Virus record (IMG/VR): IMGVR_UViG_3300028393_000176
Span: 1-36,709 of that record
From: a virus
Length of the DNA: 36,709 nt
Strand: one strand, 5' to 3'
Shown here: positions 16,934-36,706 of the stretch, one piece after another
Position numbering within the stretch: position 1 is the first letter of the stretch
Layout: each line of letters starts with the position of its first letter
Made by a program: the position numbers and the translations under genes
Notes under the pieces: generated by a model
Database searches by the model: none
The model's input: the letters and a program-made list of their open reading frames with translations, nothing else
Told to the model about the DNA's origin: nothing

Positions 16934-16942
16934 AAAATTCCT

Positions 16943-17326: not shown

Positions 17327-17327
17327 G

Positions 17328-17699: not shown

Positions 17700-17938
17700 A
17701 CGCCAGTTGCCTGCCAGGTACCTGTTTGATTTGCGGTGGTGGTAATGGTTACCGTCCCACCTGAGATCACGGAGACGGTCGAAGGCGTTGACGTAGCAAC
17801 GCTCACTGAAAACGTATCAACGATGGTCAGCCCCGTAGTGATGGCCCCGCCGGTATCACCGGCGGTACTCGCATAAGTCCCAAACACATGCTTTTTATTC
17901 CCGAAAACGTCATATTTCTTCGTATATGAGAATGCCAT
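17696..17938 (-). CDS. Hypothetical small virion protein (80 aa)
   Basis: An N-terminal basic/aromatic stretch (FSYTKKYDVFGNKKH) is followed by a Thr/Ser/Val-rich beta region. No known motif is present. It lies 9 nt after the 178-aa gene and overlaps the next gene by 4 nt. Confidence 0.5.
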   Translation of the reverse strand: MAFSYTKKYDVFGNKKHVFGTYASTAGDTGGAITTGLTIVDTFSVSVATSTPSTVSVISGGTVTITTTANQTGTWQATGV

Positions 17939-17947
17939 TAACTTGGC

Positions 17948-18484
17948 CTAACTCGCACTTACTAAAGCGGTACGGTAGTCAGAGAATAAAATAACGCTTG
18001 CGGTTCCGGCACCGGACAAAGCGCCGACCTGGATAGCCACACTCTTTGCGCTGAAAGCAGTGGAACTAGATGTCCCATCAACGATCAATGTGGTGCCGGC
18101 GTTCAGTAATTTGAGGTAATCGCCAGCGACGTGTGTCTCGTTGGCTAGTTTTGAAATACATTGACCAAAAATTTGAACGAACCCATAGTATCCAGAAGTA
18201 AAGGCCACTTGAGGGATACAGACCGTCACCCCTGATGCAAGAGTTGCGGGAGCTGCCGTGACAAACTCGCTACCACTCGTATTGATGCCAACAACCGTAT
18301 AGGGCTGATATTGGGTCAGGGTTGTATGCGATTTAACATACATGAAACGTTTGATCGCATTTGGATTATCGGAATCCACCATATGGTAAACCATTCCCAA
18401 CGGATACGCTGGGTTTTTTGCCGATGTAGGGACCGTTAAATCATTTTCATAAATTGAATTTGGACTATAAATTGGAAAACTCAT
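17948..18484 (-). CDS. Head decoration-like protein (178 aa)
   Basis: It lies immediately downstream of the coat gene. The middle (TVVGINTSGSEFVTAAP, YGFVQIFGQC, AGDYLKLLNAG) follows the pattern of small beta-barrel proteins that carry a G-x-VQ-x-x-G strand and decorate capsids. Purine-rich RBS sequence (AAAGGACGAAGAC) precedes the ATG. Confidence 0.5.
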   Translation of the reverse strand: MSFPIYSPNSIYENDLTVPTSAKNPAYPLGMVYHMVDSDNPNAIKRFMYVKSHTTLTQYQPYTVVGINTSGSEFVTAAPATLASGVTVCIPQVAFTSGYYGFVQIFGQCISKLANETHVAGDYLKLLNAGTTLIVDGTSSSTAFSAKSVAIQVGALSGAGTASVILFSDYRTALVSAS

Positions 18485-18499
18485 TGTCTTCGTCCTTTC

Positions 18500-19480
18500 T
18501 TAAGAAGTTAGAGCGGTCGCGACGGCGTTTACTCGTCGGTTTTCGCAATACAGGTTTCCAACGTGATAAGTTGTCGCGACTGAAATTGGCTGATTCGGGA
18601 TCGTTTGAACTGAATCGAGTGGCGATTTTTTTCCAGACCAGAATCCAAATCGGCATCCGAAGTGCATGGACGCAGAAGATAGGATGTAGAGGTAATTTGA
18701 CGGTGAGTAGTAATCGATGACCCAAGGAATCCCATCCACTTCGATCCCTTTGAATCCAGACTTGACCATTTCCTCGGACATGAACCGTTGTTGAACTTGC
18801 AACTGGGTTTTGTACCGTGATTGAATGTTCGCTTTGGACAGCATCAAATCGATATCGTAAGAACTTACCAATTCGTTGTCGGCGGGCTGCTGATTAACGA
18901 CTTCATAAAGTGAAGCGAGAAGGCCTGAAATAACGTCGTAGGAAACTACCGTATTGGTGCTGTCCACTTGAGGATACCAAGTTGCATAATCGGTGTTATT
19001 GATACCGGCGTACGCAGTTCCTGAAGCTCCGAAAATATCGCCAAATCCGTTGATCGCCATGTTCGAAGTAGTTCCAGAGCCATAAAGGGCACTTGAAATT
19101 GTTCGGACCATAGTGGACTGGGAAACGTTTTTCTTGACTACAGCCAAATCCGCGATTGCGTTAGGACTGTTATCGGTTGCCGCAATGTCGTTTAGCGTCA
19201 AAACCGCGCTAGATACGAACTTTTTATAGGTCAACTGCCCGTATACCAATTCTTGGTTTGGGTTGTTTGAAATTACGTCGGTCGATCCATCGATCCACCC
19301 TTGGGCGGCGTTATCAAGAATATTGACCGGGAATTGGAAGGTTAAGTTACCTCCATTAAAGGGCTTAGACCGTTTTTTAACGAGTTTGTTTAAAAGCGCA
19401 TTTGACCGAGCTAGGGCGTCGGGGATGTCTTTCATCAACTCAGTTTGCGTTACCGCTAAAATATCATTGTTGACTGGCAT
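18500..19480 (-). CDS. Major capsid protein
   Basis: A 326-aa protein directly after the scaffold. It has a helical N-terminal arm (ILAVTQTELMKDIPDALARS), an E-loop-like region (GGNLTFQFPVNI), a long spine-helix region (LKSDIMLS-type: SSYDIDLMLSKANIQSRYK), and a C-terminal beta domain (GFKGIEVDGIPWVIDYYSPS). This order is typical of HK97-fold coats of short-tailed phages. AAGGAAT precedes the ATG. Position between scaffold and decoration genes makes the assignment firm. Confidence 0.82.
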   Translation of the reverse strand: MPVNNDILAVTQTELMKDIPDALARSNALLNKLVKKRSKPFNGGNLTFQFPVNILDNAAQGWIDGSTDVISNNPNQELVYGQLTYKKFVSSAVLTLNDIAATDNSPNAIADLAVVKKNVSQSTMVRTISSALYGSGTTSNMAINGFGDIFGASGTAYAGINNTDYATWYPQVDSTNTVVSYDVISGLLASLYEVVNQQPADNELVSSYDIDLMLSKANIQSRYKTQLQVQQRFMSEEMVKSGFKGIEVDGIPWVIDYYSPSNYLYILSSASMHFGCRFGFWSGKKSPLDSVQTIPNQPISVATTYHVGNLYCENRRVNAVATALTS

Positions 19481-19494
19481 TTTTTATTCCTTTC

Positions 19495-20286
19495 TTACTT
19501 CGTGAGCATTCGGGCGATTTGATCTCGATACGATTCGGGCTTTGCATTGGGTTGACGGGACTGGGACGGCGCAATGGCCCGAGCTTTATTGCCTTGAATC
19601 GTTTTTGCTGTGTTCACCGAAGACTGTCGTTGTGCATTTTTTACAACGGCATCCATGGCAAATTTAGAGAAAATGGCCCCCATGTGTTGGGGTGGGATAT
19701 TGTTGGTTTTGCAGTAGGTCAAAAACTCGCGTTGGTCATATTCGACCCCATACTTCTTGGAGATTGAATCAATCCCCGCCAATTCGGAGTGAATGACGTT
19801 CGTTTGCTTTTCCAACTCTTGCGCCCGCTCCATTTCCTGAAATTTTTTATCTACCGCATCAGCTCTTTCGAGTTTCGATATCATTTCAGGCGGAAGATCC
19901 CCATATTTAACTCGGCGTTGCTCGGCGGCTACCTTTTCCAGGTTCTCCATGAGGGCAGTCTGATAAGCCGGATTGGATTCAAAAAACTCAACCAACTGCT
20001 TAACTTGAGAAAGGCTTCCGACTTCTCCTTCGAGTGTCGACAGCTTAGACTCGTAATCAGTAACCTTTTGCTTGTACTCGCCATGTTCCTTTTGAAGCGT
20101 CGGGAGGCTTTTCTCGACATTAAGGAACGATCGATACATTGCATGGGGATCGCGGTTCCATTCCGTTTCAAATCGAGGATCTTGATCATAGGTTTGAGAT
20201 TCCGTTTCTATAGCGGCATTGGGCTCGACCGATTGATCGATATCCATGTCTTCCGTAGCTGATTCTTGTTCGAATTCGTTTTCCAT
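19495..20286 (-). CDS. Capsid scaffolding protein
   Basis: A 263-aa acidic, highly helical protein. It has an acidic disordered N-terminus, a long coiled coil (residues about 50-165, LQKEHGEYKQKVTDYESKL), and a basic Gln/Arg-rich C-terminus (RAIAPSQSRQPNAK). That is the usual scaffold plan, with the basic end binding the coat. It lies between the portal-side genes and the coat gene. AAGGAA lies just before the ATG. Confidence 0.75.
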   Translation of the reverse strand: MENEFEQESATEDMDIDQSVEPNAAIETESQTYDQDPRFETEWNRDPHAMYRSFLNVEKSLPTLQKEHGEYKQKVTDYESKLSTLEGEVGSLSQVKQLVEFFESNPAYQTALMENLEKVAAEQRRVKYGDLPPEMISKLERADAVDKKFQEMERAQELEKQTNVIHSELAGIDSISKKYGVEYDQREFLTYCKTNNIPPQHMGAIFSKFAMDAVVKNAQRQSSVNTAKTIQGNKARAIAPSQSRQPNAKPESYRDQIARMLTK

Positions 20287-20295
20287 GAGGTTCCT

Positions 20296-20583
20296 TTACT
20301 TGAAATTGACCTTGATCTTGGCGGAGGGTGCGCCTTTCGGGGCATTTATCGGCATAGACTCCGCGCCCATTGGCCCAGCATCATCTTGTGGTGCGCCAAG
20401 GCACTCATCGATCGACTTCATCGCGCCATTAACGTCCCCACTCGAAAGCATGGCCTTAATCTCGGAAAGCTTGCCTTTTAGGTAGTCGGCTTCGCCACCT
20501 TCGGACTCGCCGCCCATATCTGGGGCTGCGCCCATTCCGGGATCTTGTCCAAAATTGATTTTAATTTTTCCTTGGTCGTCCAC
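20296..20583 (-). CDS. Hypothetical assembly protein (95 aa)
   Basis: It is Gly/Met/Pro-rich with one helix (YLKGKLSEIKAMLSSGDVNGA) and a basic end. The frame could start at 20667, but that would overlap the upstream gene by 107 nt. The GTG at 20583 has an excellent AGGAGGAG about 9 nt upstream and overlaps by 23 nt, so it is chosen. Placed before the scaffold, it may assist prohead assembly. Confidence 0.6.
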   Translation of the reverse strand: MDDQGKIKINFGQDPGMGAAPDMGGESEGGEADYLKGKLSEIKAMLSSGDVNGAMKSIDECLGAPQDDAGPMGAESMPINAPKGAPSAKIKVNFK

Positions 20584-20893
20584 GTTTAATTTCTCCTCCT
20601 GGTTCCTGCGAAACATCCTCAACCACTGGCGAAGAGACTTTGGGCTCTTCGGATTCTTCCAACTCATCGGGAGCCTCCACTATTTTCTGGAATACCGATG
20701 CGATTGGGTCTATTGCCTTCAGCTCCACAAAAATTCGATCCAAAAATTCCTCTTGGATCACAAAAAGTGCTCCAGCAAAACTGATCTTGTATTCAGTGAA
20801 TTTTTTTCCCTGTCCGCCGGGGTAAACTCCGACGATTTCCGCAAAATCGGACTGATCCGTGTTGATCCTGAACTTATTTCCTGCTGTATACAT
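20561..20893 (-). CDS. Hypothetical protein (110 aa)
   Basis: The N-terminal half is a compact beta-rich domain (KFTEYKISFAGALFVIQEEF). The C-terminal part is acidic, then ends in a basic AT-hook-like GRPRKN. No clear Shine-Dalgarno precedes the ATG. An inverted repeat AATCTA-N8-TAGATT lies about 10 nt upstream of the ATG. It sits between portal and scaffold. The family is not recognised. Confidence 0.55.
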   Translation of the reverse strand: MYTAGNKFRINTDQSDFAEIVGVYPGGQGKKFTEYKISFAGALFVIQEEFLDRIFVELKAIDPIASVFQKIVEAPDELEESEEPKVSSPVVEDVSQEPGGEIKRGRPRKN

Positions 20894-20954
20894 GCAGGGT
20901 AAGCTAATCTACTTGTAAATAGATTTCATTTCGGCATTTTTCAGTGACGTTTAT

Positions 20955-22955
20955 TTATTGCGGTGGTGGAACCGGTAATGGCGGCGCGGATGGGTCTAAT
21001 TCCGGCGGCAAAAGGCTGTTTTTTTGCAGAAGTTCTGCTTGCGCCGGTACCGGAAGGTCCGTATATGCCATGGTGATCTTTTCGATCGGTGGCGTAGGCG
21101 GTGGAAGCTGACCCATTTCCTCCTGGTCTTTTTCCATACGGTCTAAAATCCCTCGAATATTGGGGAAATCGAGATTCTCGAGCAATATTTCGCGGGAAAG
21201 CATGGACGTTGGTGGCCCGAAGACGCCGGACTTATAAAGGTCCATGGTAAGGGCGGCGATTGCGCCGCGAGAGCGGGGGAGATTTCGCCCGGTACTGACT
21301 TCGCACTCGAATTCGGTAAGGGAAAGATCCCCCTTTATTTCTTTTACGACTTTTAGCGTCTGGTCGGGACCTTCGCCCTTTTGAAGCTGGAGTTGCTGGA
21401 TATTCCCCTCTTGGCCGTCTTGGGGCGGCGTGAATGATAGGAAGTCTTTCCCGTTAGTCATTCGGATAATTCGGGGGATGTTGTAAAACTGTTGAGCCAC
21501 CATGATCGCGTAGTTCGAGATATCGACCAGATATTGATAGTAGACCGCCTGGATCTCGCGGATGGACGTCATAGGGCTTTCATTGAGGCTATCTACCATC
21601 TTGGCGCTGCTGACATTTTCCTTAGACTGGCCGGAAATCATCATGTCGTTAACACGGCCAATTTCTTTCGCTTCAGCTTTCAACTGTGCGACCAGATCGG
21701 TGAGGTTGCGGATCTCGGAGAGTGTGTTGTTGGTCAAAATGATCGGTTGCCGGGCTGGCAAAACGCCAGTCTCTACAATAGTGATTAGTTTATTCACGAA
21801 CTCGTTTTCGCTGGTAATGCCAGCTAATTCGTCGATTAAAATCGTTGAAATGTACCCACCAACAAGAAGCTGAATGCGGCGGTAGGCGCGATTGATCCGG
21901 TCTTGAACCGGGATCAGCTTCTCAACGTCGCCTTGTCCCCAGATGTCATCGGTTGGATAAAGGTTTGCGGTAACAATCGGTATTCCTGTTGGGATCTCAA
22001 TAGGCTTGTCTTCAAAAATGAGGTTGTCCCCGGCGAATATGATGACCCGACCATAAGGGTAGCGAAATCCGATTCGTTCTTTTTCAGCGATTTCCGCCCC
22101 GCTATCCCCTTGGCCGGGAATAAACGTGGAATCATCCCGGAGGTAACATTCTAGAACCTCGACACTTTCGGACATACTCACTAGGTTGGGATTATTCGAA
22201 ATATAGACTTGGGCGGCGGAGACATCGTTTTTGTAGGTCACGACGTTATTGGACTGATCCATCATGTCGGACCCGCTTTTTTCGGCCTGAGTCTTCATGA
22301 GTTTATCGATATCTTCGATACGGTCGGGGTAGCGGCGTTTTAGGGTGATTGCGCTGTAACGGTTCTTTAAAATGACATAGTTACACTCGGCGATCGTCCG
22401 GGCGGCGGGATCAGGGAAAAAATTTTTAGGGTCGATCAAATCAATCTTGACCTCACCAATCCCCTGTAGCTGATCTTGGTCCCAGGAGACACGCCCAATC
22501 ATGATGCCAAACATCTCAACGCTGCGGATCGACTCGCGTCCAAACTGCTCAAACTTGTTGACCCGTTTGATGTGATCAAGAATATCGTTCATGACATCGG
22601 AAATCGCCTGGATCTGAGTAAGGGCATTGAGATCCGCCATGGCCCCAATAACGGCATTAACGGATGTGGTTATCTCTGAATCAAGAGTGAGGCTTGTTTT
22701 GGTCTCAACAATCGGATTGATAATGTTGTACGAGTCTTTTGTGCTGGCGGAACCCTGGACGCCATTGCCCTGGCTATCCCCGTTTTTGTACCTCCCAAGA
22801 TAATACTGGGCGCAGGTTTTTAATCGGTCCTTGGGTTGCTTCTCAGTAGCAATCGAGTAAAGTTTACGGCAATGCTCAACGAGGGCCTTATCATCGGTCT
22901 TTTGTTGATTCTTTGAATCTGGCTGATCCGATTGACCGGTTGGCATACCTAACAT
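20955..22955 (-). CDS. Portal protein
   Basis: A 666-aa protein of the size of P22-type portals. Typical features are the N-terminal helical wing (KALVEHCRKLYSIATEK), the stem/crown motif region with IDLIDPKNFFPDPAARTI, the Trp-containing TDDIWGQGDVEKLIPVQD, and a long helix with the NRAYRRIQL start. The C-terminus is Pro-rich (PPLPVPPPQ). It forms the dodecameric DNA gate at the packaging vertex and docks the terminase. No Shine-Dalgarno is seen; a promoter-like -10 box is 7 nt before the ATG. Confidence 0.85.
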   Translation of the reverse strand: MLGMPTGQSDQPDSKNQQKTDDKALVEHCRKLYSIATEKQPKDRLKTCAQYYLGRYKNGDSQGNGVQGSASTKDSYNIINPIVETKTSLTLDSEITTSVNAVIGAMADLNALTQIQAISDVMNDILDHIKRVNKFEQFGRESIRSVEMFGIMIGRVSWDQDQLQGIGEVKIDLIDPKNFFPDPAARTIAECNYVILKNRYSAITLKRRYPDRIEDIDKLMKTQAEKSGSDMMDQSNNVVTYKNDVSAAQVYISNNPNLVSMSESVEVLECYLRDDSTFIPGQGDSGAEIAEKERIGFRYPYGRVIIFAGDNLIFEDKPIEIPTGIPIVTANLYPTDDIWGQGDVEKLIPVQDRINRAYRRIQLLVGGYISTILIDELAGITSENEFVNKLITIVETGVLPARQPIILTNNTLSEIRNLTDLVAQLKAEAKEIGRVNDMMISGQSKENVSSAKMVDSLNESPMTSIREIQAVYYQYLVDISNYAIMVAQQFYNIPRIIRMTNGKDFLSFTPPQDGQEGNIQQLQLQKGEGPDQTLKVVKEIKGDLSLTEFECEVSTGRNLPRSRGAIAALTMDLYKSGVFGPPTSMLSREILLENLDFPNIRGILDRMEKDQEEMGQLPPPTPPIEKITMAYTDLPVPAQAELLQKNSLLPPELDPSAPPLPVPPPQ

Positions 22956-22962
22956 TGGGGCT

Positions 22963-22992
22963 ATTTAAGTGATCGCAAGCCCCCATTGTCAT
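22963..22992 (-). promoter_or_regulatory. Possible promoter for the portal gene
   Basis: On the minus strand ATGACA (-35, 22987-22992) and TTAAAT (-10, 22963-22968) are 18 nt apart, with 7 nt from the -10 to the portal ATG. A GGGGCT/AGCCCC inverted repeat (22957-22962, 22980-22985) brackets the -10. The match is moderate. Confidence 0.35.
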
Positions 22993-23003
22993 TTCTGTTT
23001 TTT

Positions 23004-23432
23004 TCACCAACGACCCTGACCAGTATGTGCAAGATATGCACCTACTGAATTGCGGACATTAATACGGAGGCGCTCGTCACTCTCTTTTTCAAGTCGAGCC
23101 CTATGATGATCCGCCTCCTGTGAAATCTCTTTTTCAGACGCCCAGATTTTCCCATTCTCACGGGCGTAGTTTTCAAGTTCCTTTCGAGAATGTACCACCT
23201 TCCCGCCACCAGGTAATCCCGGCTCAAAATATTCGTGCATGGGCGGAATAAAATTAAATGATCGTCCAGACGCCGTAACATTTTCCCGGTACACCCGAAG
23301 TCGATACCATTCCATGAGTGTCGGGCAGTTATAGCAGACAAGCTTATAATCCCCGCCAGCGGTAAAAAGTTCCTCGGTAGTCGCCCCACAACTGGGGCAT
23401 TTAAAAAATACCAAATGCTGATGAGGTGCCAT
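23004..23432 (-). CDS. Zn-ribbon protein (142 aa)
   Basis: Residues about 12-36 hold two Cys pairs, CPSCG and CYNCP, spaced like an FmdB-type zinc ribbon. The rest is charged and helical (RARLEKESDERLRINVRN) and ends in GQGRW. It overlaps the 196-aa gene by 1 nt. Similar small Zn-ribbon proteins occur between terminase and portal genes; the role is unknown. Confidence 0.6.
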   Translation of the reverse strand: MAPHQHLVFFKCPSCGATTEELFTAGGDYKLVCYNCPTLMEWYRLRVYRENVTASGRSFNFIPPMHEYFEPGLPGGGKVVHSRKELENYARENGKIWASEKEISQEADHHRARLEKESDERLRINVRNSVGAYLAHTGQGRW

Positions 23433-24022
23433 TAGATTGCTACCCTTGACCTGATCGCCGTGACATAAAACTTCTTCAGCTTATCCCGAATGTGAATGTC
23501 CTTAATCCGGCCATGGGCGTAACTGTGAGCGGTTGTCGCCTCCACCTTAAACTCTTCCTGAATGTGTTTAAGCAAAAGCCCACTCTGGATATAAAGCTGC
23601 ATAAGCTCCTCGTCAGTGATGTGGTCAATAAACTTCGACGTAAAATGAAAATCAAAGTCACTCGCCATCTTGGAAATGCGATTCTCAATCTGGACCATAC
23701 GCTGGTGTACCCGTGTCAACTCATTGAGTATCGTAACCGGAGACGTCTTTTTGTTTATTTGCTCAAATAATTCTTTACTGGTTTCCACCTTTCTTTCAAT
23801 GTTGGTCACAAGCTCCCCAAACTCAGCCCTCATAATCTTGGCGGCAGCAATGCCACCAATCGACTCCACATGTTCCTTGATGTTCTCTAAAAACGTAGCC
23901 TGGAAGTCATTAATTTTCTTCTCAGCCGATTCCTTCTCTGACTTCAATTCCCCTAGCAGGGACTCTACCGAAGCCCGTACCATCGTCTTAATTCTGATCT
24001 CGTCTTGAGGGCTAAAACTCAT
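23432..24022 (-). CDS. Coiled-coil protein next to terminase (196 aa)
   Basis: The N-terminal two thirds is a long coiled coil. The C-terminal 60 residues (ITDEELMQLYIQSGLLLKH, then VEATTAHSYAHGRIKDI) look like a helix-turn-helix domain. The ATG at 24022 makes an ATGA overlap with the terminase stop; ATG 24037 is an alternative. A DNA-binding coiled-coil protein beside TerL could act as small terminase or packaging factor, but this is inference. Confidence 0.55.
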   Translation of the reverse strand: MSFSPQDEIRIKTMVRASVESLLGELKSEKESAEKKINDFQATFLENIKEHVESIGGIAAAKIMRAEFGELVTNIERKVETSKELFEQINKKTSPVTILNELTRVHQRMVQIENRISKMASDFDFHFTSKFIDHITDEELMQLYIQSGLLLKHIQEEFKVEATTAHSYAHGRIKDIHIRDKLKKFYVTAIRSRVAI

Positions 24023-25305
24023 CCTTGATTCTCCCATTCTTGCTTATTCGGCATGACCAACATTTTCTCTAATCGCTTACCTGATGTGTCTAGCTTCGGA
24101 TCACTGCTTGTCAGGTCCTCTAAAAAACAAATCAGGTAGAGCATGGCGTCTATCGCGTGATTGTCCTTGTCTTGTGGCTTCTCATCGAGGTTCTTCTCGT
24201 CCCCCAGCCTCATTTTCTTCCAGTGGTAGTTCCGTATCTCCCGAATCAATTCGACGCAGTTCCGCGTGATAAACAGCCTCCCAGTCTTAAATAACCAATT
24301 AACGTGAGCGATGTTTCGAGTTTCGTCCTTGTTTGATTCGAGTAGCGGCACTCCCTCAGCTTCTAGGTCTTGCCAGACGGATTTCCCATCACGGTCCGGT
24401 CGCTTCGTCGAGAAGTCGTATACCACGAGCTTTTTGCCGTGACGCTTGCTTGCGGTCGCTATCTGTTGAACTGATTGTTCTTTTTCGTACCATTCATCAT
24501 AAATAATGACGTTGCCGTCAAAATCTTTCAACCCCCACACAAATGCCGCTGGGTTTCTGAATCCGTAATCCCCACCAATAGCGTCTCTCATGCCCATCTC
24601 AGGCACGAATGCGTCCACCACATGCTCAGAGTCTTTAAACGTCGAAAAGACCATAAGTTCATGAGAACCCCATTCCCCGAACATCTTTGAAGCGAGCTGA
24701 GACTCACTGTAGTTGGCTATCAGGTTAGGGATAAACTGCGGGTTGTACTTGTCTAAGAATGCCCTGTTATCAAGCGTTGAGACCTGGATATAGAAGATAT
24801 TGGAAGGTAGCGGATTGTCGATATAGCGCGTCTTTGCCCAACACTGGGCAGGGTTACCTTCCGTTATTAAAATTTTCTTCTTTAACGTTGATTTACCACG
24901 CTGTCTTCCGAAAATTTCTTTGAATAGGGCCTCTGGTATCTGCTCCGCTTGGGATATCACGATGACGTCTATGTTGCCTCCTAGGATCTTCTCAGGCTGG
25001 TCAAAGGCCCTGAAGCGTATAAGTGAGCCGTTTGGGAAGTGCATTTCTTTGGGCTGGATCTTGTGGACGTAGCCATTGCCCCCAAATAGCTCGTTAAAGT
25101 CGGATATGATCGTGTCGTCTAGCTGAGTGTATGTTTCCCTGATTACGGTGATCTTGACGCCTTTGTACTGTTCGCAGATTTGGAATATGGCTAATAGTAC
25201 GGTCATGGTCTTGCCGGAACCGTACCCTCCCCATATTGAGAATTCGTCATAGGGGCTGTCGAGATTTACTGTGCCATCGTCATTAAAGATTGCTTCCCAA
25301 AACAT
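24019..25305 (-). CDS. terL: Terminase large subunit
   Basis: A 428-aa packaging motor. Walker A is GGYGSGKT (residues 26-33), an adenine/C-motif-type region is RETYTQL, and Walker B is IDVIVISQAEQ (residues 112-122). The C-terminal RNase-H-like nuclease begins with GGDYGFRNPAAFVWG and includes IIYDEWYEKEQS and late DNHAIDAMLYL acidic residues. It cuts concatemers and pumps DNA into the prohead. It is preceded by two or three small genes, one of which is probably the small subunit. Confidence 0.92.
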   Translation of the reverse strand: MFWEAIFNDDGTVNLDSPYDEFSIWGGYGSGKTMTVLLAIFQICEQYKGVKITVIRETYTQLDDTIISDFNELFGGNGYVHKIQPKEMHFPNGSLIRFRAFDQPEKILGGNIDVIVISQAEQIPEALFKEIFGRQRGKSTLKKKILITEGNPAQCWAKTRYIDNPLPSNIFYIQVSTLDNRAFLDKYNPQFIPNLIANYSESQLASKMFGEWGSHELMVFSTFKDSEHVVDAFVPEMGMRDAIGGDYGFRNPAAFVWGLKDFDGNVIIYDEWYEKEQSVQQIATASKRHGKKLVVYDFSTKRPDRDGKSVWQDLEAEGVPLLESNKDETRNIAHVNWLFKTGRLFITRNCVELIREIRNYHWKKMRLGDEKNLDEKPQDKDNHAIDAMLYLICFLEDLTSSDPKLDTSGKRLEKMLVMPNKQEWENQG

Positions 25306-25367
25306 GGTTAACTTTGGGTTTAATTCGACGTCAGAGACTTCAGGTTCCTGGTGTTCGGTAAGCGTAT

Positions 25368-25583
25368 TTAACCCCTAGATAACCAATCGTTTTCTTGGTC
25401 TACCGCCTGGAATGGGTTGGTGGGCTGAGACGGTGTCTTGGGCTTTGTGAGACGTATTGCGGCGATAGGGTCTGCGTTGTTTCGCGAGAAGTGAGTTATC
25501 CGCATAATGAACATTACGACACCGCAGACGTATAGGGCGTTGACTGCGAGTAGTAGGACTGCGAGTAGTAGGGTTGTGATCAT
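25368..25583 (-). CDS. Small membrane protein (71 aa)
   Basis: The N-terminal 30 residues are a hydrophobic segment (TTLLLAVLLLAVNALYVCGVVMFIM), followed by a basic, Pro/Gln-rich cytoplasmic-type tail. It starts with an ATGA overlap. The 5' part of the DNA contains a short direct repeat (ACTGCGAGTAGTAGG twice, 25543-25571). Function is unknown. Confidence 0.5.
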   Translation of the reverse strand: MITTLLLAVLLLAVNALYVCGVVMFIMRITHFSRNNADPIAAIRLTKPKTPSQPTNPFQAVDQENDWLSRG

Positions 25584-25885
25584 GAGCGGGGAATCCCAAA
25601 GAAGTCGGCGACTAGCGATACCGTGTTGTTATAGTCGTAACTGATTCGGTCAATCGTGGATAAGCATAAGGCCCGGACTATTGCGTTGCCTTCTGAAGCG
25701 TCTAGGGATGCCAGGGAGCCCGACACTATCAGCCTCTGGGCAATTCTTCGCAAGTCATAGGACCGATACAATTCAGTATTGGCGGTTGATAATAGGGCCT
25801 CAATTACGATGTCCCCTAGGATCAATGGCTTGCCCGCTGACGGGATATCTACGGCCAATGACCCGTTGAATTTTGCTAGCGTCAT
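25580..25885 (-). CDS. Hypothetical protein (101 aa)
   Basis: A compact alpha/beta protein without recognisable motifs (ILGDIVIEALLSTANTELY and YDLRRIAQRLIVSG are its most distinctive parts). It is coupled by 4-nt overlaps to both neighbours ahead of the terminase gene. Confidence 0.5.
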   Translation of the reverse strand: MTLAKFNGSLAVDIPSAGKPLILGDIVIEALLSTANTELYRSYDLRRIAQRLIVSGSLASLDASEGNAIVRALCLSTIDRISYDYNNTVSLVADFFGIPRS

Positions 25886-26211
25886 TCCTTGGGGGCCTTT
25901 GCTGATACAAGCGCTTTAAGCGCCTTGTCGGGGTCTTTGGACAGTAACACCCGCAAGGTTTTCTTTGCGTCGCCTGGGATGAATTCCTCGTCTAGTTCCC
26001 CGCCTAACTGCACACGTAGGTTGGCCGCTTTTATCCGGGCTTCCCAGTCTGGCACTATGACGATCCCGTGTTCTCTGGAGTGGATATTCTTTTCAGCCTT
26101 GAGGGCTTCTGAGATGGTCTCAACGACTTCCTCGAATGGGATCAGTTTGCGGATCATCCGCGCCGCCGAGGTTTTTAAATCCTGATCGTCCACTGGCAGT
26201 AATTCGCTCAT
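25882..26211 (-). CDS. First gene of late operon, candidate terminase small subunit (109 aa)
   Basis: An all-helical, acidic protein. The stretch VPDWEARIKAANLRVQLGGE resembles sequences in small phage packaging proteins. Its place at the head of the late operon, two genes before TerL, fits TerS. The frame allows TTG 26217, but ATG 26211 is chosen. No Shine-Dalgarno is visible; a promoter-like sequence ends 6 nt before this ATG, so translation may be leaderless. Confidence 0.5.
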   Translation of the reverse strand: MSELLPVDDQDLKTSAARMIRKLIPFEEVVETISEALKAEKNIHSREHGIVIVPDWEARIKAANLRVQLGGELDEEFIPGDAKKTLRVLLSKDPDKALKALVSAKAPKE

Positions 26212-26217
26212 GGCCAA

Positions 26218-26246
26218 ACGTTAACTTTTAATTAAACCAAAGTCAA
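26218..26246 (-). promoter_or_regulatory. Candidate late-operon promoter
   Basis: Minus strand: TTGACT (26241-26246), 17-nt AT-rich spacer, TAACGT (26218-26223), then 6 nt to ATG 26211. The -35 is good and the -10 weak, as expected for an activated late promoter. Confidence 0.4.
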
Positions 26247-26267
26247 ACGTGCCTAAATTCTATGTCG

Positions 26268-26283
26268 CATAATAACTATTATG
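26268..26283. promoter_or_regulatory. Perfect palindrome CATAATAACTATTATG, candidate operator
   Basis: The 7-bp arms CATAATA and TATTATG around AC lie about 22 bp upstream of the candidate late -35. This suits an activator or repressor site controlling the late operon. Confidence 0.45.
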
Positions 26284-26507
26284 TGAAAACGCCCCTATAT
26301 CGAGCGTATTCGATGCTTATTTTGGCAATAGTTGACGTGTCGTATTGGGGGCAGATTCGGGCGTGGCTGGCGGTGTAAAAAACCCCCTACCCCCCTTATT
26401 GCAATGTTGTTGCGTTTGAGAGGGCTCATTTTTCTCTAATCCCAAAACCCGATACTACTCACAAATTCATCCCAAACCAATAAACCAAAATGGGGCCCCG
26501 ATCGTCC

Positions 26508-26672
26508 TCAATCCACACTCGAAACAATAACCCCCTGTTTAATCGCCTCAGCAAGCCCATTAACGAGCCTGTAAGGCCTCACAAAACAAATACCCTGATC
26601 AGGATCAAAGCAAACCTTCGGTTGGTTAAAACCGGTGGTTAAAACATGCGACTGGGTATCAATATCGTTCAT
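26508..26672 (-). CDS. Small hypothetical protein (54 aa)
   Basis: The frame runs from ATG 26670-26672 to TGA 26508-26510. The sequence has KVCFDPDQGICFVRPYRLV followed by an amphipathic helix (LAEAIKQGVIVSS). It is not recognised. There is no Shine-Dalgarno, but a promoter with the -10 seven nt before the ATG and a palindrome over the start support it as a real, perhaps leaderless, regulatory gene. The remaining intergenic DNA (26284-26507) holds only two C-runs (26383-26395) and no convincing gene. Confidence 0.5.
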   Translation of the reverse strand: MNDIDTQSHVLTTGFNQPKVCFDPDQGICFVRPYRLVNGLAEAIKQGVIVSSVD

Positions 26673-26709
26673 AATGATCATTATCCCGCGTCTACGCGCC
26701 CGCGTCTAC
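26671..26709 (-). promoter_or_regulatory. Promoter with palindrome and direct repeats for the 54-aa gene
   Basis: Minus strand: TAGACG (26703-26708), 17 nt, GATAAT (26680-26685), 7 nt to ATG. ATAATGATCATTAT (26671-26684) is a perfect palindrome over the -10/start. CCCGCGTCTAC occurs twice (26685-26695, 26699-26709) across the -35. These look like two operator types. Confidence 0.5.
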
Positions 26710-26806
26710 TGTATTCAGACTACGTAACTGTGCCCTGGTGGTGGTTTTTAAAATATTAAATTCCATAGGATTAAACATTCCTCAATAGCCCATTTCTTAA
26801 TTTCAA

Positions 26807-26971
26807 TCATTTAGGAACATAGACGTATACACGTTGGATACGTGCCCTTCTAAGGTACGAGTTTAACGCGGATACAGGTACGCCCATATGATTGGCGATA
26901 TCCACCTGTAGCCAACCGAGATTGAGCCAGGCGATTATCTGATCCCGGTTCCATTTAATTTTAGGTTTCAT
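26807..26971 (-). CDS. Small helix-turn-helix regulator (54 aa)
   Basis: The protein MKPKIKWNRDQIIAWLNLGW... contains an HTH of the form WLQVDIANHMGVPVSALNSY followed by a basic end (LRRARIQRVYVYVPK). The frame can be extended to 27079, but the promoter places the transcription start at the ATG of 26971. It is transcribed divergently from the early operon and controlled by an inverted repeat over its -35, so autoregulation and control of early genes are likely. It is a possible lysis/maintenance switch protein. Confidence 0.7.
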   Translation of the reverse strand: MKPKIKWNRDQIIAWLNLGWLQVDIANHMGVPVSALNSYLRRARIQRVYVYVPK

Positions 26972-26978
26972 ATTCGAG

Positions 26979-27007
26979 ACTATATTTAATTGACGTGTTC
27001 CCGTCAA
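26979..27007 (-). promoter_or_regulatory. Promoter/operator of the small HTH regulator
   Basis: Minus strand: TTGACG (27002-27007), 17-nt spacer, TATAGT (26979-26984), then 7 nt to the ATG. TTGACG-N6-CGTCAA (26990-27007) is a perfect inverted repeat over the -35. Part of it, TTGACGTGT, recurs at 26332-26340 near the late promoter. Confidence 0.65.
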
Positions 27008-27029
27008 TGCATTGAAATAATACCATGTG

Positions 27030-27035
27030 TATAAT
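27030..27035 (+). promoter_or_regulatory. Consensus -10 box of the divergent early promoter
   Basis: TATAAT at 27030-27035 is a perfect -10 for the plus-strand early operon starting at 27096. No good -35 lies 16-18 nt upstream, so the promoter may need an activator or a phage-modified polymerase. Confidence 0.4.
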
Positions 27036-27095
27036 ACGTCAGATTGGGGTATATTAATGGGGTAGGAAAATTTAATCAAATGAGGTTTTGAGAAA

Positions 27096-27293
27096 ATGAA
27101 TAGTGTGAATGATCTTTTGTTTGGAATGGCCGGGATATTTATGTTCGGGGTCGTGATTCTTTCAAGTTTAGGGGCACCATTTTCGACCGCCTGTCAGTTC
27201 GGGATAGTGTTGGTTCCAGTCGTTTGGATAGTCGTTTCTGGATGTCTATTTTTGGCTAAAGAATTTGAAGCTCGAACACAAAGGGGCAATTAA
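27096..27293 (+). CDS. Small membrane protein, first early gene (65 aa)
   Basis: Two hydrophobic segments (residues about 10-27 and 35-54, FGIVLVPVVWIVVSGCLFL) end in a charged tail (KEFEARTQRGN). It is probably a two-pass inner-membrane protein. First position in the early operon suggests a role in takeover or superinfection exclusion, which is speculative. GAGG lies about 11 nt upstream of the ATG. Confidence 0.6.
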   Translation: MNSVNDLLFGMAGIFMFGVVILSSLGAPFSTACQFGIVLVPVVWIVVSGCLFLAKEFEARTQRGN

Positions 27294-27294
27294 T

Positions 27295-27537
27295 ATGCAA
27301 CACAAACACGCAATCGAAGTTAAATATCTAGGCCCAACGTACTCATGCGGCTCACGATTAAAGGTCACGTCCCGCCGATTTAATCAGTCTCTGACTTTCG
27401 GTGTCGACTATACGACCACGGACCTATCAGAGATGGCGGCGCGTGAGCTTGCCCGCCTAGGCTTCACCTTCGACACCTACGCAGAAACCAAGGCCGGATA
27501 TGTGATCCTAGTAAACGAGTTTAAGGGGCTTAAATAA
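27295..27537 (+). CDS. Hypothetical early protein (80 aa)
   Basis: It begins MQHKHAIEVKYLGPTYSCGS, then basic and beta-rich sequence (RLKVTSRRFNQSLTF) and a C-terminal helix. AAAGGGG 8 nt before ATG 27295 decides the start, even though the frame is open further upstream. It resembles small phage proteins of unknown function that bind nucleic acid or host factors. Confidence 0.6.
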   Translation: MQHKHAIEVKYLGPTYSCGSRLKVTSRRFNQSLTFGVDYTTTDLSEMAARELARLGFTFDTYAETKAGYVILVNEFKGLK

Positions 27538-31816: not shown

Positions 31817-31853
31817 ATGACATCTTGAAAATGTCACGAAACGTGACTATACT
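31817..31853 (+). promoter_or_regulatory. Strong promoter with two overlapping palindromes
   Basis: TTGAAA (31825-31830), 17-nt spacer, TATACT (31848-31853), then 6 nt to ATG 31860. GTCACG-AAA-CGTGAC (31833-31847) is a perfect palindrome filling the spacer. TGACAT-N7-ATGTCA (31818-31823, 31831-31836) overlaps it and the -35. This is a compact operator. Confidence 0.75.
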
Positions 31854-31859
31854 ACGCTC

Positions 31860-32018
31860 ATGAATGGTTTGAAAAACGCCGAACGAATAACGACGATTAT
31901 CACGATGGCATCCCAAGGCGCGACGCTGACGGACACCGCAAAAAAGCTAGGGATTGCCCGTGAAACACTATCACGCTGGATCGCAAGGAACATGCCGACA
32001 TGGAAAGCGACAAAATGA
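31860..32018 (+). CDS. Small HTH protein, first gene of the recombination operon (52 aa)
   Basis: The helix-turn-helix TLTDTAKKLGIARETLSRWI (residues about 23-42) resembles homeodomain-like resolvase/transposase HTH units. The ATG coincides with the predicted transcription start, so the mRNA should be leaderless. The palindromes over its promoter are natural binding sites, implying autoregulation and control of the helicase-Bet-Exo-initiator operon. It ends by overlap with the helicase start. Confidence 0.68.
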   Translation: MNGLKNAERITTIITMASQGATLTDTAKKLGIARETLSRWIARNMPTWKATK

Positions 32019-34003
32019 AGCTCCGACGACACCAACAAGAGTTTTCCGACTGGTGCGATGAAATACTCGCTGGAAAAAACACAACCACAAAATGCCTTCT
32101 TCATGTGACTCCAGGCGGCGGGAAAAGCTTGATCCCCAAAATATTGTGGGACAAGCTAAGCGACACAAATATCCAATACGTTGTTTGGTTCGTACCAAGA
32201 AAAATTTTGCGATCGCAAGGGATGGAAAATTTCACAGAAAACCACTCCAGAATCATTTGCGCCTGTTACCAATTATCAGAATCTGAGTTAGAAGAAATTT
32301 TCGACGAAATTCGTAGCAATAGATATGCCATCGTTATGGACGAATTCCACCATTTGTCCGCAGGCGGCGCATGGGGCGAAAAGATCAAGAAGTTGATAGA
32401 CGGTGCTAAATTCCAAATATTTATGACTGGAACCATTGAACGCGGCGACTATGAGCCAATTCTAGGTATGGAATACAAAAAAACGCTTCACGGGAATCAT
32501 TTAGATGTCTCGAATATGAAATATATCCGCTACTCAATCGACGATGCATTAGAGGAAAGGGCCATACGCCCGCTTAAATTTCACAAGTACGACGGTGAAT
32601 CCGTTTGGATGGACAAATCAGGAAAATCGACACGGTCAAAGATATCTGAAAATGACTCACGAGCATTAAAAACCGCCCTATCAACCGGTTTCTCAAAGAG
32701 AATTATAGGGGAATGCGTGGATCACTGGGCCATTAAAACAAAAAAGCGTGGGGGCAAAATCTTGGTAATTGCGCCCAACATAAAAATAGCCAACGAATAT
32801 TTCGATGAAATTAGCCAAAAATACATTTTAAGGGTTGCAATCGCAACGACTGACAACTCAAACGCTCATTCGGTAATCAATCAATTCAAGCGCAATGATG
32901 ACCACGTCTTGATAACCGTCGGCATGGCATACGAGGGGCTGGATATCCCTCGAATAACGCACGTTTTATGCCTCACTCATATCCGCAGTGCTCCATGGCT
33001 AATGCAGGCCATGAGCCGAGCAAACCGGAGAAACGAACATACAAAGTCGGATTTCGGATATATATTCTGCCCATCAGACGATCTTATCGATTCAGCAATC
33101 GGATACATTACCGGACATCAAGACAGCTTTTATGCTCGAATGGACGCAGTCATAACCGCAGGGGCTTCCGGGGCTTCCGGGGCTTCCGGGGCTTCCGGGG
33201 CTTCCGGGGCTTCCGGGGCTTCCGACAATTATAACTTCGACTGGGAGCCAGTAGAGTCAAATTTGATTAAAATTCGCGGGGAATATGCGCTTGTCGATTG
33301 GGATATGCACCGATCAAATTTCCAAAAACAACTGATCGATAACCCACGGCTACAAATAAAGGAATACTGCGAACAATATAACTTAATTTATCAAACCGCC
33401 GTTTCTCATATAAAAAATAACCCAAGACGACATGATTGGGCATCACTCCAAAAAGAATTTGACGACGGTCAACTAGATCTACGTGAATTCTCGAAATCCA
33501 AGGGGATCTCATTTGATTTAACACGCAAGAATATCGTGGGGGCATTAAAAAAACTGCAAGAAATAAATATGCGCCATACAATTATTTTGATCGAAGAGTG
33601 GCTGTCCGTGAGGGGTACAATTACGCGAGCTGACTTTTCAAAATCAAAAGGGCTGACTTGCGGCGGACTTCAACACCATTTAACCAAATATAATCATCAT
33701 TTCGGTGCAGTAAAGAGCAAAAAAAATCTATCAAAGTCCAAAGAATTTATGCAAAAGCTTCATGAACTGAGAGAAGCGGGGCATTCTTTAAAGCAGATAT
33801 CTGAAGAAATGGGGATTTCATTTGATTACACACAAAGGTTACTGAGACGAATTAGAAAGAACGTAGCAACAACGCCGGGCGGGGAGGGCCTTCCCGGTGT
33901 TGTTGGTGTGGTCATAGAAAGAAGCAGAGACATAGGCCATTTTAGGGAATTGGCGACCACCCCAAGACAGACAACAAAAAGAAAGGCGGTTAAAGTTTCA
34001 TAG
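32015..34003 (+). CDS. SF2 (DEAD/DEAH-like) helicase with Gly-Ala-Ser linker and tandem HTH-like repeats
   Basis: Starting at MKLRRHQ (ATGA overlap with the HTH gene; ATG 32000 is an alternative), the protein has Walker A TPGGGKS, motif II DEFH, motif III MTGT, motif V VGMAYEGLDIPRITHVL and motif VI QAMSRANR. These form a full RecQ/Res-like ATPase core (residues about 1-370). A seven-fold Gly-Ala-Ser linker follows. The C-terminal part has at least four HTH-like units: LQIKEYCEQYNLIYQTAVSHI, DLREFSKSKGISFDLTRKNI, TRADFSKSKGLTCGGLQHHL and SLKQISEEMGISFDYTQRLL. It could unwind DNA at the origin or during recombination, with the repeats reading specific DNA. Confidence 0.82.
   Translation: MKLRRHQQEFSDWCDEILAGKNTTTKCLLHVTPGGGKSLIPKILWDKLSDTNIQYVVWFVPRKILRSQGMENFTENHSRIICACYQLSESELEEIFDEIRSNRYAIVMDEFHHLSAGGAWGEKIKKLIDGAKFQIFMTGTIERGDYEPILGMEYKKTLHGNHLDVSNMKYIRYSIDDALEERAIRPLKFHKYDGESVWMDKSGKSTRSKISENDSRALKTALSTGFSKRIIGECVDHWAIKTKKRGGKILVIAPNIKIANEYFDEISQKYILRVAIATTDNSNAHSVINQFKRNDDHVLITVGMAYEGLDIPRITHVLCLTHIRSAPWLMQAMSRANRRNEHTKSDFGYIFCPSDDLIDSAIGYITGHQDSFYARMDAVITAGASGASGASGASGASGASGASDNYNFDWEPVESNLIKIRGEYALVDWDMHRSNFQKQLIDNPRLQIKEYCEQYNLIYQTAVSHIKNNPRRHDWASLQKEFDDGQLDLREFSKSKGISFDLTRKNIVGALKKLQEINMRHTIILIEEWLSVRGTITRADFSKSKGLTCGGLQHHLTKYNHHFGAVKSKKNLSKSKEFMQKLHELREAGHSLKQISEEMGISFDYTQRLLRRIRKNVATTPGGEGLPGVVGVVIERSRDIGHFRELATTPRQTTKRKAVKVS
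33161..33223. repeat. Seven tandem copies of GGGGCTTCC
   Basis: The 9-bp unit GGGGCTTCC is repeated exactly seven times, encoding Gly-Ala-Ser each time. It links the helicase core to the HTH region. Perfect identity suggests recent slipped-strand expansion and phase-preserving copy-number change. Confidence 0.95.
33867..33905 (+). repeat. 13-bp stem-loop near the helicase 3' end
   Basis: CAACAACGCCGGG (33867-33879) pairs with CCCGGTGTTGTTG (33893-33905), one G-T pair, around a 13-nt GC-rich loop. It encodes the Thr/Gly/Pro-rich link between the HTH region and the C-terminal basic tail. There is no T run. Confidence 0.55.
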
Positions 34004-34011
34004 ATTTAAAC

Positions 34012-34044
34012 AAAAAAAAAGCCCCGGGGGCAAACCCGAGGCTT
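34012..34044 (-). terminator. Terminator-like hairpin oriented on the minus strand
   Basis: AAGCCTCGGG pairs with CCCGGGGCTT (one mismatch) across a GC-rich loop, followed on the minus strand by nine U (complement of 34012-34020). On the plus strand the U tract is missing. There is no minus-strand gene to its right, so it may block antisense transcription. Confidence 0.5.
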
Positions 34045-34729: not shown

Positions 34730-35617
34730 ATGACTGATCTTGAAGTACACGACCGACTTAAACTGGATAAGGAAACCGTCAAAAAACTTCTATGCGAAAA
34801 GGCCTCTGACGGAGAAATCGCCTTATTCCTTGAGCTATGCAAAGCGAGGAATATAAACCCGTTCATAAAAGAGGCGTATCTCGTAAAATACGATGCGACA
34901 AAACCGGCTCAAATAGTGACATCCAAAGAATATTTTTTGCGCCGCGCCGGTGAGCATCCTTCATACGAAGGTTTTGAAGCTGGGATAGTGGTCGAGGATA
35001 AGGGGGATATCCTTTATCGCCAGGGGAGCATACTTCTCGAAGGCCAAAAACTGATAGGCGGCTGGGCGCTTGTTTATAGAAATGGCCGCAAGCCAACCCG
35101 ATCCGAGATAAGTCGGTCGGAATTCGACAAGAAACAATCAAATTGGGTCACAATGCCGGGCTTAATGTGTCGGAAGGTGGCAATTGTCTCGGCATTAAGA
35201 GAAGGCTTCCCGGACGAATTTAACGGACTAGTCGATGAAGCTGAAATGGGTGTAATTGAAGCGTCTTCGCGGGTAGTTCAAAAAGAGACCGACTTTTTTA
35301 CTGAAAAATTGACGGAAGTAACTGAATCTATGGACATAGTTAGCGATAAAATAAAGCCCGTCGTGGACAATTTTGATTTCGAAGTTCTTAAAAAGGTAAT
35401 CGACGGGTACACCTTCGAAGAATTTACCACAAAGGCCCCGGACTTTTTCATAAAAATAAAGCCAAATATTAGCGACGACGACTATGCCGAGCTTCATTTT
35501 CATTCAAAATGCCGGTGGGAGAGCTTGAAACCAAAGCCAAAGCCGACGGCGCGGGTATTCGGTCCAATGGATAGCCTAGGGGACATACTTGAAAAAGCCG
35601 ACCTATCGCCAGAGTAA
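34730..35617 (+). CDS. bet: Bet/RecT-type single-strand annealing recombinase
   Basis: A 295-aa protein with the Bet family signature in the N-terminal half: FLELCKARNINPFIKEAYL, VSKEYFLRRA, EGFEAGIVV, LIGGWALVYR, and MCRKVAIVSALREGFPDEF. It anneals complementary single strands at recombination ends. The C-terminal 100 residues are acidic and probably contact SSB or the exonuclease. AAGGGA lies 6 nt before ATG. The exonuclease gene overlaps its end, the classic Exo-Bet pairing. Confidence 0.92.
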   Translation: MTDLEVHDRLKLDKETVKKLLCEKASDGEIALFLELCKARNINPFIKEAYLVKYDATKPAQIVTSKEYFLRRAGEHPSYEGFEAGIVVEDKGDILYRQGSILLEGQKLIGGWALVYRNGRKPTRSEISRSEFDKKQSNWVTMPGLMCRKVAIVSALREGFPDEFNGLVDEAEMGVIEASSRVVQKETDFFTEKLTEVTESMDIVSDKIKPVVDNFDFEVLKKVIDGYTFEEFTTKAPDFFIKIKPNISDDDYAELHFHSKCRWESLKPKPKPTARVFGPMDSLGDILEKADLSPE

Positions 35618-36356
35618 CATAGCCAATTATTTCGAATGCCCCCATCGGTTCCACTTGAGCCGCCACCACGACATGCCCACATCGGATGCTATGGAGGAGG
35701 GGCGCTTATTCGAGGCTATTGTCTTAGGCGCTAAGGATGAGGAAGAAAAAAAGGCCCTCTTTGGAAGGAAAACAAAAAAAACGATCGATAGCTATACGCG
35801 ATCGGCTGACATGGTCCGCCAGTTATTTGACTTAGCGGACATTGGTGTCGGGCTAGATTCCTACGTGACAATGGTGTGGGAATCAGAGGAATACATTCTT
35901 CAGGGAGAAGCAGATTTTATTGGGTACCTAAGAATTTATGGGAAACGGTATAAATCAATCGCGGATCTAAAATTCACGGGCTCGATAACCAGGGTATGGA
36001 TGGACAAGACAAGGAAGTCCCAGTTTCTCCAGTCCGCCGTTTATCAGTATCTACACTATATGAACTCCGGAGAGCTACTACCGTTCACGTACATCGTCGT
36101 CGAAAATCTAAAGTCACTCCCGATGGGGGCCAAGCCCATCATAAAGATCTACATCATAAAGCCCAATATGGAGGCGCTTAACTGGGTTGAGTCACTGGTA
36201 CAAGCGATACATGAAGACTCCGACCTACGACCCAATTTAGAGGTCTGTGAGGATGGCCCGTTTAAGTCCCGATGCAAATACCTGATCCACTGCGCCCATG
36301 GTCGTAAATTAATCGAGACACCGGTAGAGGTGGACTTCATGAGCCTGATGGAATAG
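35589..36356 (+). CDS. PD-(D/E)XK exonuclease, Cas4/AddB-like (Bet partner)
   Basis: A 255-aa protein with a TTG start preceded by AGGGGA, 29 nt inside bet. The nuclease core has GEADF (D109), ADLKF (D126, K128) and the helix QSAVYQY (Q148). Cys17 in ECPHRF plus Cys220, Cys229 and Cys235 near the C-terminus could hold a 4Fe-4S cluster as in Cas4 and AddB, with the last two Cys separated by five residues. It would resect DNA ends to feed Bet. Confidence 0.82.
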   Translation: MKKPTYRQSNIANYFECPHRFHLSRHHDMPTSDAMEEGRLFEAIVLGAKDEEEKKALFGRKTKKTIDSYTRSADMVRQLFDLADIGVGLDSYVTMVWESEEYILQGEADFIGYLRIYGKRYKSIADLKFTGSITRVWMDKTRKSQFLQSAVYQYLHYMNSGELLPFTYIVVENLKSLPMGAKPIIKIYIIKPNMEALNWVESLVQAIHEDSDLRPNLEVCEDGPFKSRCKYLIHCAHGRKLIETPVEVDFMSLME

Positions 36357-36502: not shown

Positions 36503-36706
36503 ATGGACTGGTTTAAAATCAAGGTTACTCACGTACTTTGTAGTCCGCTTACGAATGAGGAAATTGGTCGGCTAATACGATACCAGGCGCTCACGGCGCT
36601 AAAGGAACGATTGCCTTTTGATTCGGAAATTTCCAAGATTTTTCCTGGAAAAATTAAAGAAAAAATGGAAAAAATTCTAGAAAAAAATGGAATTAATATG
36701 GAATAA
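36503..36706 (+). CDS. Replication initiator, N-terminal part (continues at base 1 of the window)
   Basis: The first 23 codons (36503-36571) precede the terminal repeat and join base 1 in frame. The frame ends in the window at NGINME-stop because the last 12 bases differ from the start copy (NGINLEFIAKK). The N-terminus MDWFKIKVTHVLCSPLTNEE resembles the beginning of phage replication organisers. The true gene is the joined 367-aa frame; the truncated end is probably a contig-end artefact or a minor variant. Confidence 0.65.
   Translation: MDWFKIKVTHVLCSPLTNEEIGRLIRYQALTALKERLPFDSEISKIFPGKIKEKMEKILEKNGINME
36572..36697. repeat. Second copy of the terminal overlap
   Basis: This is identical to 1-126. 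Beyond it the window continues ATGGAATAAAAT, which differs from the start copy and introduces a stop in the initiator frame. Confidence 0.9.

Follow-up and report, generated by a model that had tools for sequence, protein, structure and literature searches.

The window analysed here is the whole stretch of DNA filed as a linear molecule under the IMG/VR virus record IMGVR_UViG_3300028393_000176 and comprises 36,709 bases. A direct repeat of 133 nt is common to its two ends (positions 1-133 and 36572-36704, 132 of 133 positions identical), and for this reason the genome is probably complete, with a length of about 36.57 kb. The final bases of the record resemble an assembly end. The gene of interest lies on the plus strand (32015-34003) and encodes a helicase in which an SF2 core is followed by a Gly-Ala-Ser linker and a C-terminus of HTH-like units. 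The longest ATG frame runs uninterrupted from 32000 to 34003 (667 aa), and residue numbers are counted here from 32000. The start at 32015, already chosen in the first-pass annotation and giving 662 aa, is the more probable one, because it overlaps the stop of an upstream HTH ORF as ATGA and because the relatives start at the same place, with N-termini of the form M-(K/I)-L-R-(R/K)-H-Q.

The upstream ORF (31860-32018, plus strand) encodes a 52-aa HTH protein that matches HTH_23 at 6e-7. Its ATG is found 7 nt past a -10 hexamer, and the gene possibly gives rise to a leaderless, autoregulated mRNA. Upstream of the operon and inside its promoter, the interval 31818-31853 (plus strand) contains two overlapping palindromes, TGACAT-N7-ATGTCA and GTCACG-AAA-CGTGAC, which occupy with positions 31818-31847 the spacer of a sigma-70-like promoter (TTGAAA-17-TATACT) and look like an operator, as for a repressor. 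The location of these palindromes just upstream of the gene would fit an HTH array that serves transcription, binding them or other operators and regulating the operon. We regard such a role as very unlikely, since small palindromes suit a dimeric repressor, the units of the array are non-identical tandem repeats and two separate HTH proteins, encoded at 31860 and 29953, are better candidates. Two hairpins were noticed at the other end of the gene: a strong one at 33866-33906 (stem of 13 pairs, z -4.1), within the last part of the coding sequence and past the HTH array, and a terminator-like one at 34019-34044, just past the gene, which has its run of T on the minus strand, where it serves no obvious gene. 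Further downstream and on the same strand as the helicase gene, a RecT-family single-strand annealing protein is encoded at 34730-35617 (matches at 1.9e-34 and 4e-56), followed by a PD-(D/E)XK nuclease at 35589-36356 (plus strand; match at 1.5e-4 and a weak exonuclease PHROG), which is likely the exonuclease partner of RecT.

The SF2 core named in the first-pass annotation is confirmed. It occupies residues 6-380 (32015-33139, plus strand), matches ResIII at 5e-14 and Helicase_C at 1e-10, and contains all the expected motifs: I (37-43), Ia (65-71), II (DEFH, 114-117), III (143-145), IV (254-259), V (307-315) and VI (336-344). By these motifs, placed in two RecA-like domains, the protein is classed as an SF2 helicase/translocase, with its fold taken from homology. 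Matches in PADLOC are to generic helicases only, and a defence-system identity was rejected on that account. Modelling of the fold was carried out on a relative, L012, which is 29% identical to the window protein over the full length, using an alignment of 59 sequences. The model reached a mean pLDDT of 87 and showed a C-terminal domain of three helices. In a PDB fold search with this model, covering mainly residues 1-429, the nearest solved fold was E. coli RadD (YejH), an accessory motor of recombination (Z 26.3 over 341 residues, 18% identity), followed by the duplex-DNA motors XPB, Mfd and, of the Snf2 type, INO80. Transferred by homology, these results predict a RadD/XPB-like fold for the core of the window protein. 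The protein itself is no RadD, because it is devoid of the RadD zinc fingers: RadD carries two of them, with four cysteines each, after its RecA-like domains (PMC9049331), whereas the nine cysteines of the window protein (19, 32, 87, 89, 239, 324, 357, 457 and 554) are scattered and include no zinc-finger set. RadD speeds RecA strand exchange and on its own shows no helicase activity (PMC8887467).

A collection of 123 homologous helicases was assembled from 39 virus-contig loci, 80 genome loci and four plasmid genes. They belong to an unnamed, phrog_16-like 'DNA helicase' family, are 27-40% identical to the window protein over the core, and come from phages, plasmids and chromosomes; their sources include Azospirillum and other Alphaproteobacteria, Nitrospirota, cyanobacteria and spirochaetes. 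The C-termini of almost all follow one plan: a low-complexity, often glycine-rich linker, then an I-x-P-L-x-S strand and then a domain of about 65 residues with the consensus LR-x2-I ... N-x-E-I ... FGK-x-R-x2-MT-x2-EL ... YP. At a threshold of E<1e-3, 118 of the 123 relatives are recognised by a profile of the domain; this profile was built from 32 of them, and the figure of 118 is therefore partly by construction, which does not apply to the contrast with the window protein, where the profile finds no match. The five relatives not matched comprise two that run off their contigs (L055 and L069), one with an early stop (L063) and two divergent ones (L040 and L043). The domain, an example of which is encoded at L012:6300-6545, has no clear relative in Pfam or the PDB and merits a name. 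Conversely, a profile of the HTH units matches none of the 123 relatives at E<0.1. Other variations were seen within the family. An HNH-like domain is fused ahead of the core in L045 (PHROG HNH at 6e-10) and L049, and also in L019 and L041, which are cyanobacterial and in some cases phage proteins, and one phage contig contains two adjacent ORFs of the helicase family (L036:4995-9248).

In a tree of the core, the window protein is nested in a domain-bearing clade, within nodes of 51, 53 and 54 tips with supports of 91, 95 and 88, whereas its finer placement, on a long branch, has supports of 16-71. Two outgroup helicases also show the domain match (L139 at 8.6e-6 for the domain, L137 at 3e-4 for the whole protein). 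Because the window protein is nested among domain-bearing relatives and the outgroups carry the domain as well, the simplest reading of these sequences is that the ancestral domain was lost and the HTH array gained, probably a replacement rather than an independent gain. The first-pass annotation knew no standard family with this arrangement, and a helicase core with several HTH units is indeed absent from the 123 relatives. Scans that detect close relatives only found no HTH-array relative in virus contigs, searched with the full protein or its C-terminus, or in genome contigs, searched with the C-terminus, and the window is the only genome known to carry the architecture, so that conservation lends it no backing. 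Scanning with RecT for sister phages returned nothing, and scans with the portal protein and TerL retrieved the same or related phages, on contigs that stop short of the helicase.

The linker preceding the array is encoded by seven 9-bp direct repeats, GGGGCTTCC (7.1 perfect copies; 33161-33224, plus strand), which give (ASG)6 at residues 389-406, in agreement with the Gly-Ala-Ser linker described initially. An additional frame at 32968-33234 with RGFRGF repeats was discounted, as it arises from the 9-bp repeat. Directly after the linker, the segment NFDWEPVESNLIKIRG (33230-33277, plus strand) is the counterpart of the I-x-P-L-x-S strand of the relatives, and the strand appears in the model of one of them. 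Residues P417, S420, N421 and R426 are invariant in the alignment, and the PVESN-x4-R of the window protein aligns with PLESN-x4-R of plasmid helicases. This strand is the last recognisable feature of the family ahead of the replaced part and, since it has been retained, the exchange starts past residue 427, beyond the 9-bp repeats. The same evidence bears on whether the gene could be an assembly chimera or a decayed gene, in which the 9-bp repeat would mark the join between a helicase and an HTH gene of foreign origin. Seven perfect repeats are prone to misassembly, and no second contig covers the helicase gene, as a search with its exact 24-mers found none. Against an artefact, the family P-x-E-S-N strand lies beyond the repeats, which argues against an assembly join there, the frame continues uninterrupted for 258 codons past them, and three further contigs are in agreement with the window across portions of 10958-27498 or nearby. 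An artefact of this kind is thus hardly credible. Short tandem repeats of 15 bp are also found in the late region, at 10685-10724 and 25542-25572.

The C-terminus comprises about 260 residues and is basic (net charge +13, pI 10.1). Four HTH-like units had been reported in it, and they can be recognised as unit 1 (residues 430-478; 33287-33433), unit 2 (479-522, with EFSKSKGIS; 33434-33565), unit 3 (523-572, with DFSKSKGLT; 33566-33715) and unit 4 (573-626, ISEEMGISFDYTQRLLRR; 33716-33877), all on the plus strand and centred on residues 451-472, 492-514, 541-563 and 595-617. The evidence differs between them. The best gap-free self-match within the C-terminal 260 residues joins units 2 and 4 over 44 aa with a score of 53, against a mean of 27.1 (sd 3.5) and a maximum of 42 in 300 shuffled sequences. 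The internal repeat is therefore real and significantly beyond chance. Other self-matches score 38 (unit 2 with unit 3) and 24 (unit 1 with unit 2). In the libraries, unit 1 matches small-terminase PHROGs at 3.3e-6 and 5.2e-5, and unit 4, with a net charge of +6, matches HTH_23 at 4.6e-4 and several HTH PHROGs, among them phrog_3855 at 1.5e-4, whereas no HTH family there is hit by unit 2 or unit 3. Unit 3 is the weak member, recognised only through its similarity to unit 2 in the repeat comparison and through predicted helices. The pattern EFSKSKG(I/L)S, initially thought to be common to all four units, is restricted to unit 2 (EFSKSKGIS at 496) and unit 3 (DFSKSKGLT at 545); unit 1 has EYCEQYNLI and unit 4 has QISEEMGIS at this place. 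Fold prediction of the C-terminus, the check that the first-pass annotation had proposed, gave from the single sequence an all-helical, low-confidence model (pLDDT 40, rising to 51-63 over unit 4). Its helices fall at the positions expected from the units, but the model is too uncertain to speak for or against them. A profile of the four units, searched against PDB sequences, found the HTH of IscR at E 0.12, which is suggestive only. At the nucleotide level, a 23-nt stretch common to units 2 and 4 is 87% identical, and units 3 and 4 may be copies that arose within the helicase gene. As judged from these similarities, HTH units of this protein very probably bind DNA, and binding by all four of them is supported but not proven.

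The origin of the array was indicated by a tblastn search of the C-terminus against 7.3 Gb of plasmids, which found a protein of Vibrio phage-plasmids at 1e-5, aligned over 169 residues. The gene of this protein is located directly upstream of a terminase gene, the position that pacA occupies in P1. An E. coli P1-like protein, named PacA in its record, is 40% identical over 42 residues. The pairwise match between the C-terminus and PacA reached 6e-13 with the order of the HTHs kept, and pairwise scores against four PacA proteins were 91-132, compared with shuffle maxima of 48-62. A profile restricted to four PacA N-termini, with the window protein left out, hits unit 1 at 1.5e-12. Among 200 shuffled versions of the C-terminus the best value was 0.5, and no helicase relative matches. 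With unit 1 omitted, units 2-4 alone still outscore every one of 500 shuffles in the comparison with two of these PacA proteins, whereas for V. campbellii PacA and the P1-like PacA the 500 shuffles gave no support to a match with units 2-4. In the phage collection, the C-terminus retrieved weak matches only, among them PacA of phage D6; the match in Pseudomonas phage 16Q falls between annotated genes. By homology, then, unit 1 is classed as an HTH of the PacA type, that is, of the P1-type pacase or small terminase, and unit 2, which aligns with the second HTH of the Vibrio phage-plasmid PacA, probably corresponds to it. Because the tandem N-terminal HTHs of PacA have a homologue in unit 1 and, with weaker evidence, in unit 2, it is reasonable to infer, by analogy with PacA, that the array binds in a sequence-specific, site-directed manner. 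HTHs of small terminases may also act in oligomer contacts. The P1 pac site lies within pacA and contains seven hexamer repeats, which are bound by PacA and PacB (PMC10028697); the N-terminal HTHs of PacA presumably do the pac-site binding.

This kinship, together with the fact that the PacA profile recognises no small terminase elsewhere in the window, could mean that the array recognises a pac site and that the motor helps the terminase or serves to clear DNA where the cut is made. Such a packaging role has very little to recommend it given the position of the gene, which belongs to an early module with RecT and is separated by 7 kb from the large terminase (24022-25305), encoded on the opposite strand. 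In addition, P1-type pac hexamers (TGATCR) form no cluster in the window, where 37 sites are scattered with at most two in 170 bp, and small ORFs near the large terminase could represent a diverged small subunit. More probable is a general DNA-holding clamp with little sequence preference, which would raise processivity or the binding of branched DNA. Winged-helix domains act as such a clamp in RecQ-type helicases, the C-terminus is very basic, RadD and XPB, whose folds come closest, engage DNA by its structure and not by its sequence, and the array replaces a small domain of nearly all relatives that may itself contact DNA. However, PacA-type HTHs come from a site-recognising protein (PMC10028697), four HTHs in a row exceed what a clamp needs and the array is unique to the phage of the window, all of which makes us consider the clamp an unlikely, though serious, alternative.

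The genomic context was also informative with regard to replication. The ORFs scanned, including every ORF of at least 300 aa, gave no match to DnaB, DnaC, primase or polymerase, a result that is to be read as an absence of match, as several long ORFs match nothing. The window helicase shows no DnaB family domain and matches ResIII and Helicase_C instead. One ParA-like ORF has a primase/helicase PHROG match at 0.005, far weaker than its ParA match at 1e-43. As far as the scans reach, the initial statement that the phage has no DnaB-like helicase or loader holds; many phages without a DnaB of their own rely on host DnaB. The ParA-like ATPase gene (948-1721) and a RusA-like gene are placed on the other side of the contig ends from the helicase region, and a weak Fic/DOC match is present at 3166-3732. 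The ParA-like gene adjoins a gene that runs from 36503 across the contig ends to 1035, within which three perfect GGTGACGTCACC palindromes (352-411, spacing 24 bp) form iterons. As in the case of lambda O, the gene may encode an initiator and the iterons may be a candidate origin; having a ParA-like gene beside it suggests a phage-plasmid lifestyle.

The first-pass annotation had proposed on these grounds a sequence-directed replicative or origin-melting helicase taking the place of DnaB, in effect a phage UL9. The lack of a recognised DnaB or loader in an apparently complete genome and the precedent of UL9 speak for this idea. As a replicative helicase standing in for DnaB, however, the protein does not fit: its predicted fold is that of a RadD/XPB/Mfd/Snf2-type SF2 motor and not of a DnaB-type replicative ring, and the three GGTGACGTCACC iterons lie inside a separate early gene (36503-1035) whose product would be a likelier initiator, as lambda O is. 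Its neighbours are recombination genes, as are those of the relatives, which in phages adjoin SbcC-like, VRR-NUC-like, RusA-like and SSB genes. We therefore judge the replacement of DnaB quite unlikely. The two targets suggested for the array, the iterons and the palindromes at 31817, are doubtful as well, because the former are inside another gene and the latter sit in a promoter spacer like the operator of a repressor. By analogy with the P1 pac site in pacA, the target of the array could even lie inside its own gene, for example in the seven 9-bp repeats.

Taking these observations together, the reading that we favour, with a probability of about one half, is a RadD/XPB-like motor that a PacA-type HTH array keeps attached to phage DNA and that acts in recombination-linked replication. 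The array would bind a specific stretch of phage DNA, and the flexible Gly-Ala-Ser linker would let the ATP-driven core act on duplex or branched DNA beside the bound site. The product of the motor, whether melted DNA, remodelled DNA or an intermediate of strand exchange, would feed the RecT protein and the nuclease encoded downstream, and the outcome would be recombination-linked replication of a genome without a recognised replicative helicase. We infer the sequence specificity, the site, a helicase as opposed to a translocase action and the role in replication or recombination. The sequences point clearly to a domain exchange, in which the standard tail of a widespread phage motor was probably swapped for units of the kind with which a packaging protein reads DNA. 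They also bring to notice a C-terminal domain, conserved and unnamed, in more than 100 phage and plasmid helicases. If the array is site-specific, the protein would be a compact, testable example of the conversion of a general DNA motor into one directed by sequence.

Besides RadD, three known systems are comparable to the window protein. With its helicase family it shares TPGGGKS, DE-x-HH, V-x-MAYEG-L-D, HIRS-x-PW, the low-complexity linker and the I-x-P-L-x-S strand; it differs in carrying four HTH units instead of the conserved C-terminal three-helix domain. With PacA it shares a homologous unit 1 and the order of units 1 and 2, which corresponds to the pair of HTHs at the N-terminus of Vibrio PacA. 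In contrast to the window protein, PacA lacks a helicase core and has a C-terminal body of another kind, and as a small terminase it is encoded directly upstream of the large terminase. The third system is herpes simplex UL9, in which an SF2 core is followed by a C-terminal, site-specific DNA-binding part that targets the motor and works at an origin (PMC12543377). The likeness would be that of a functional analogue: the reading head of UL9 has another fold, with an RVKNL motif, and no homology between the C-termini is claimed. It can be speculated that the window protein is the bacterial-virus counterpart of UL9, an SF2 motor with a captured PacA-type module for pac recognition, so that packaging and replication or recombination share one mode of reading DNA; this wider proposal is tentative, and we hold it to be unlikely. 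Should the array turn out to be site-specific, the protein would nevertheless offer a phage parallel of the herpes origin-binding helicase.
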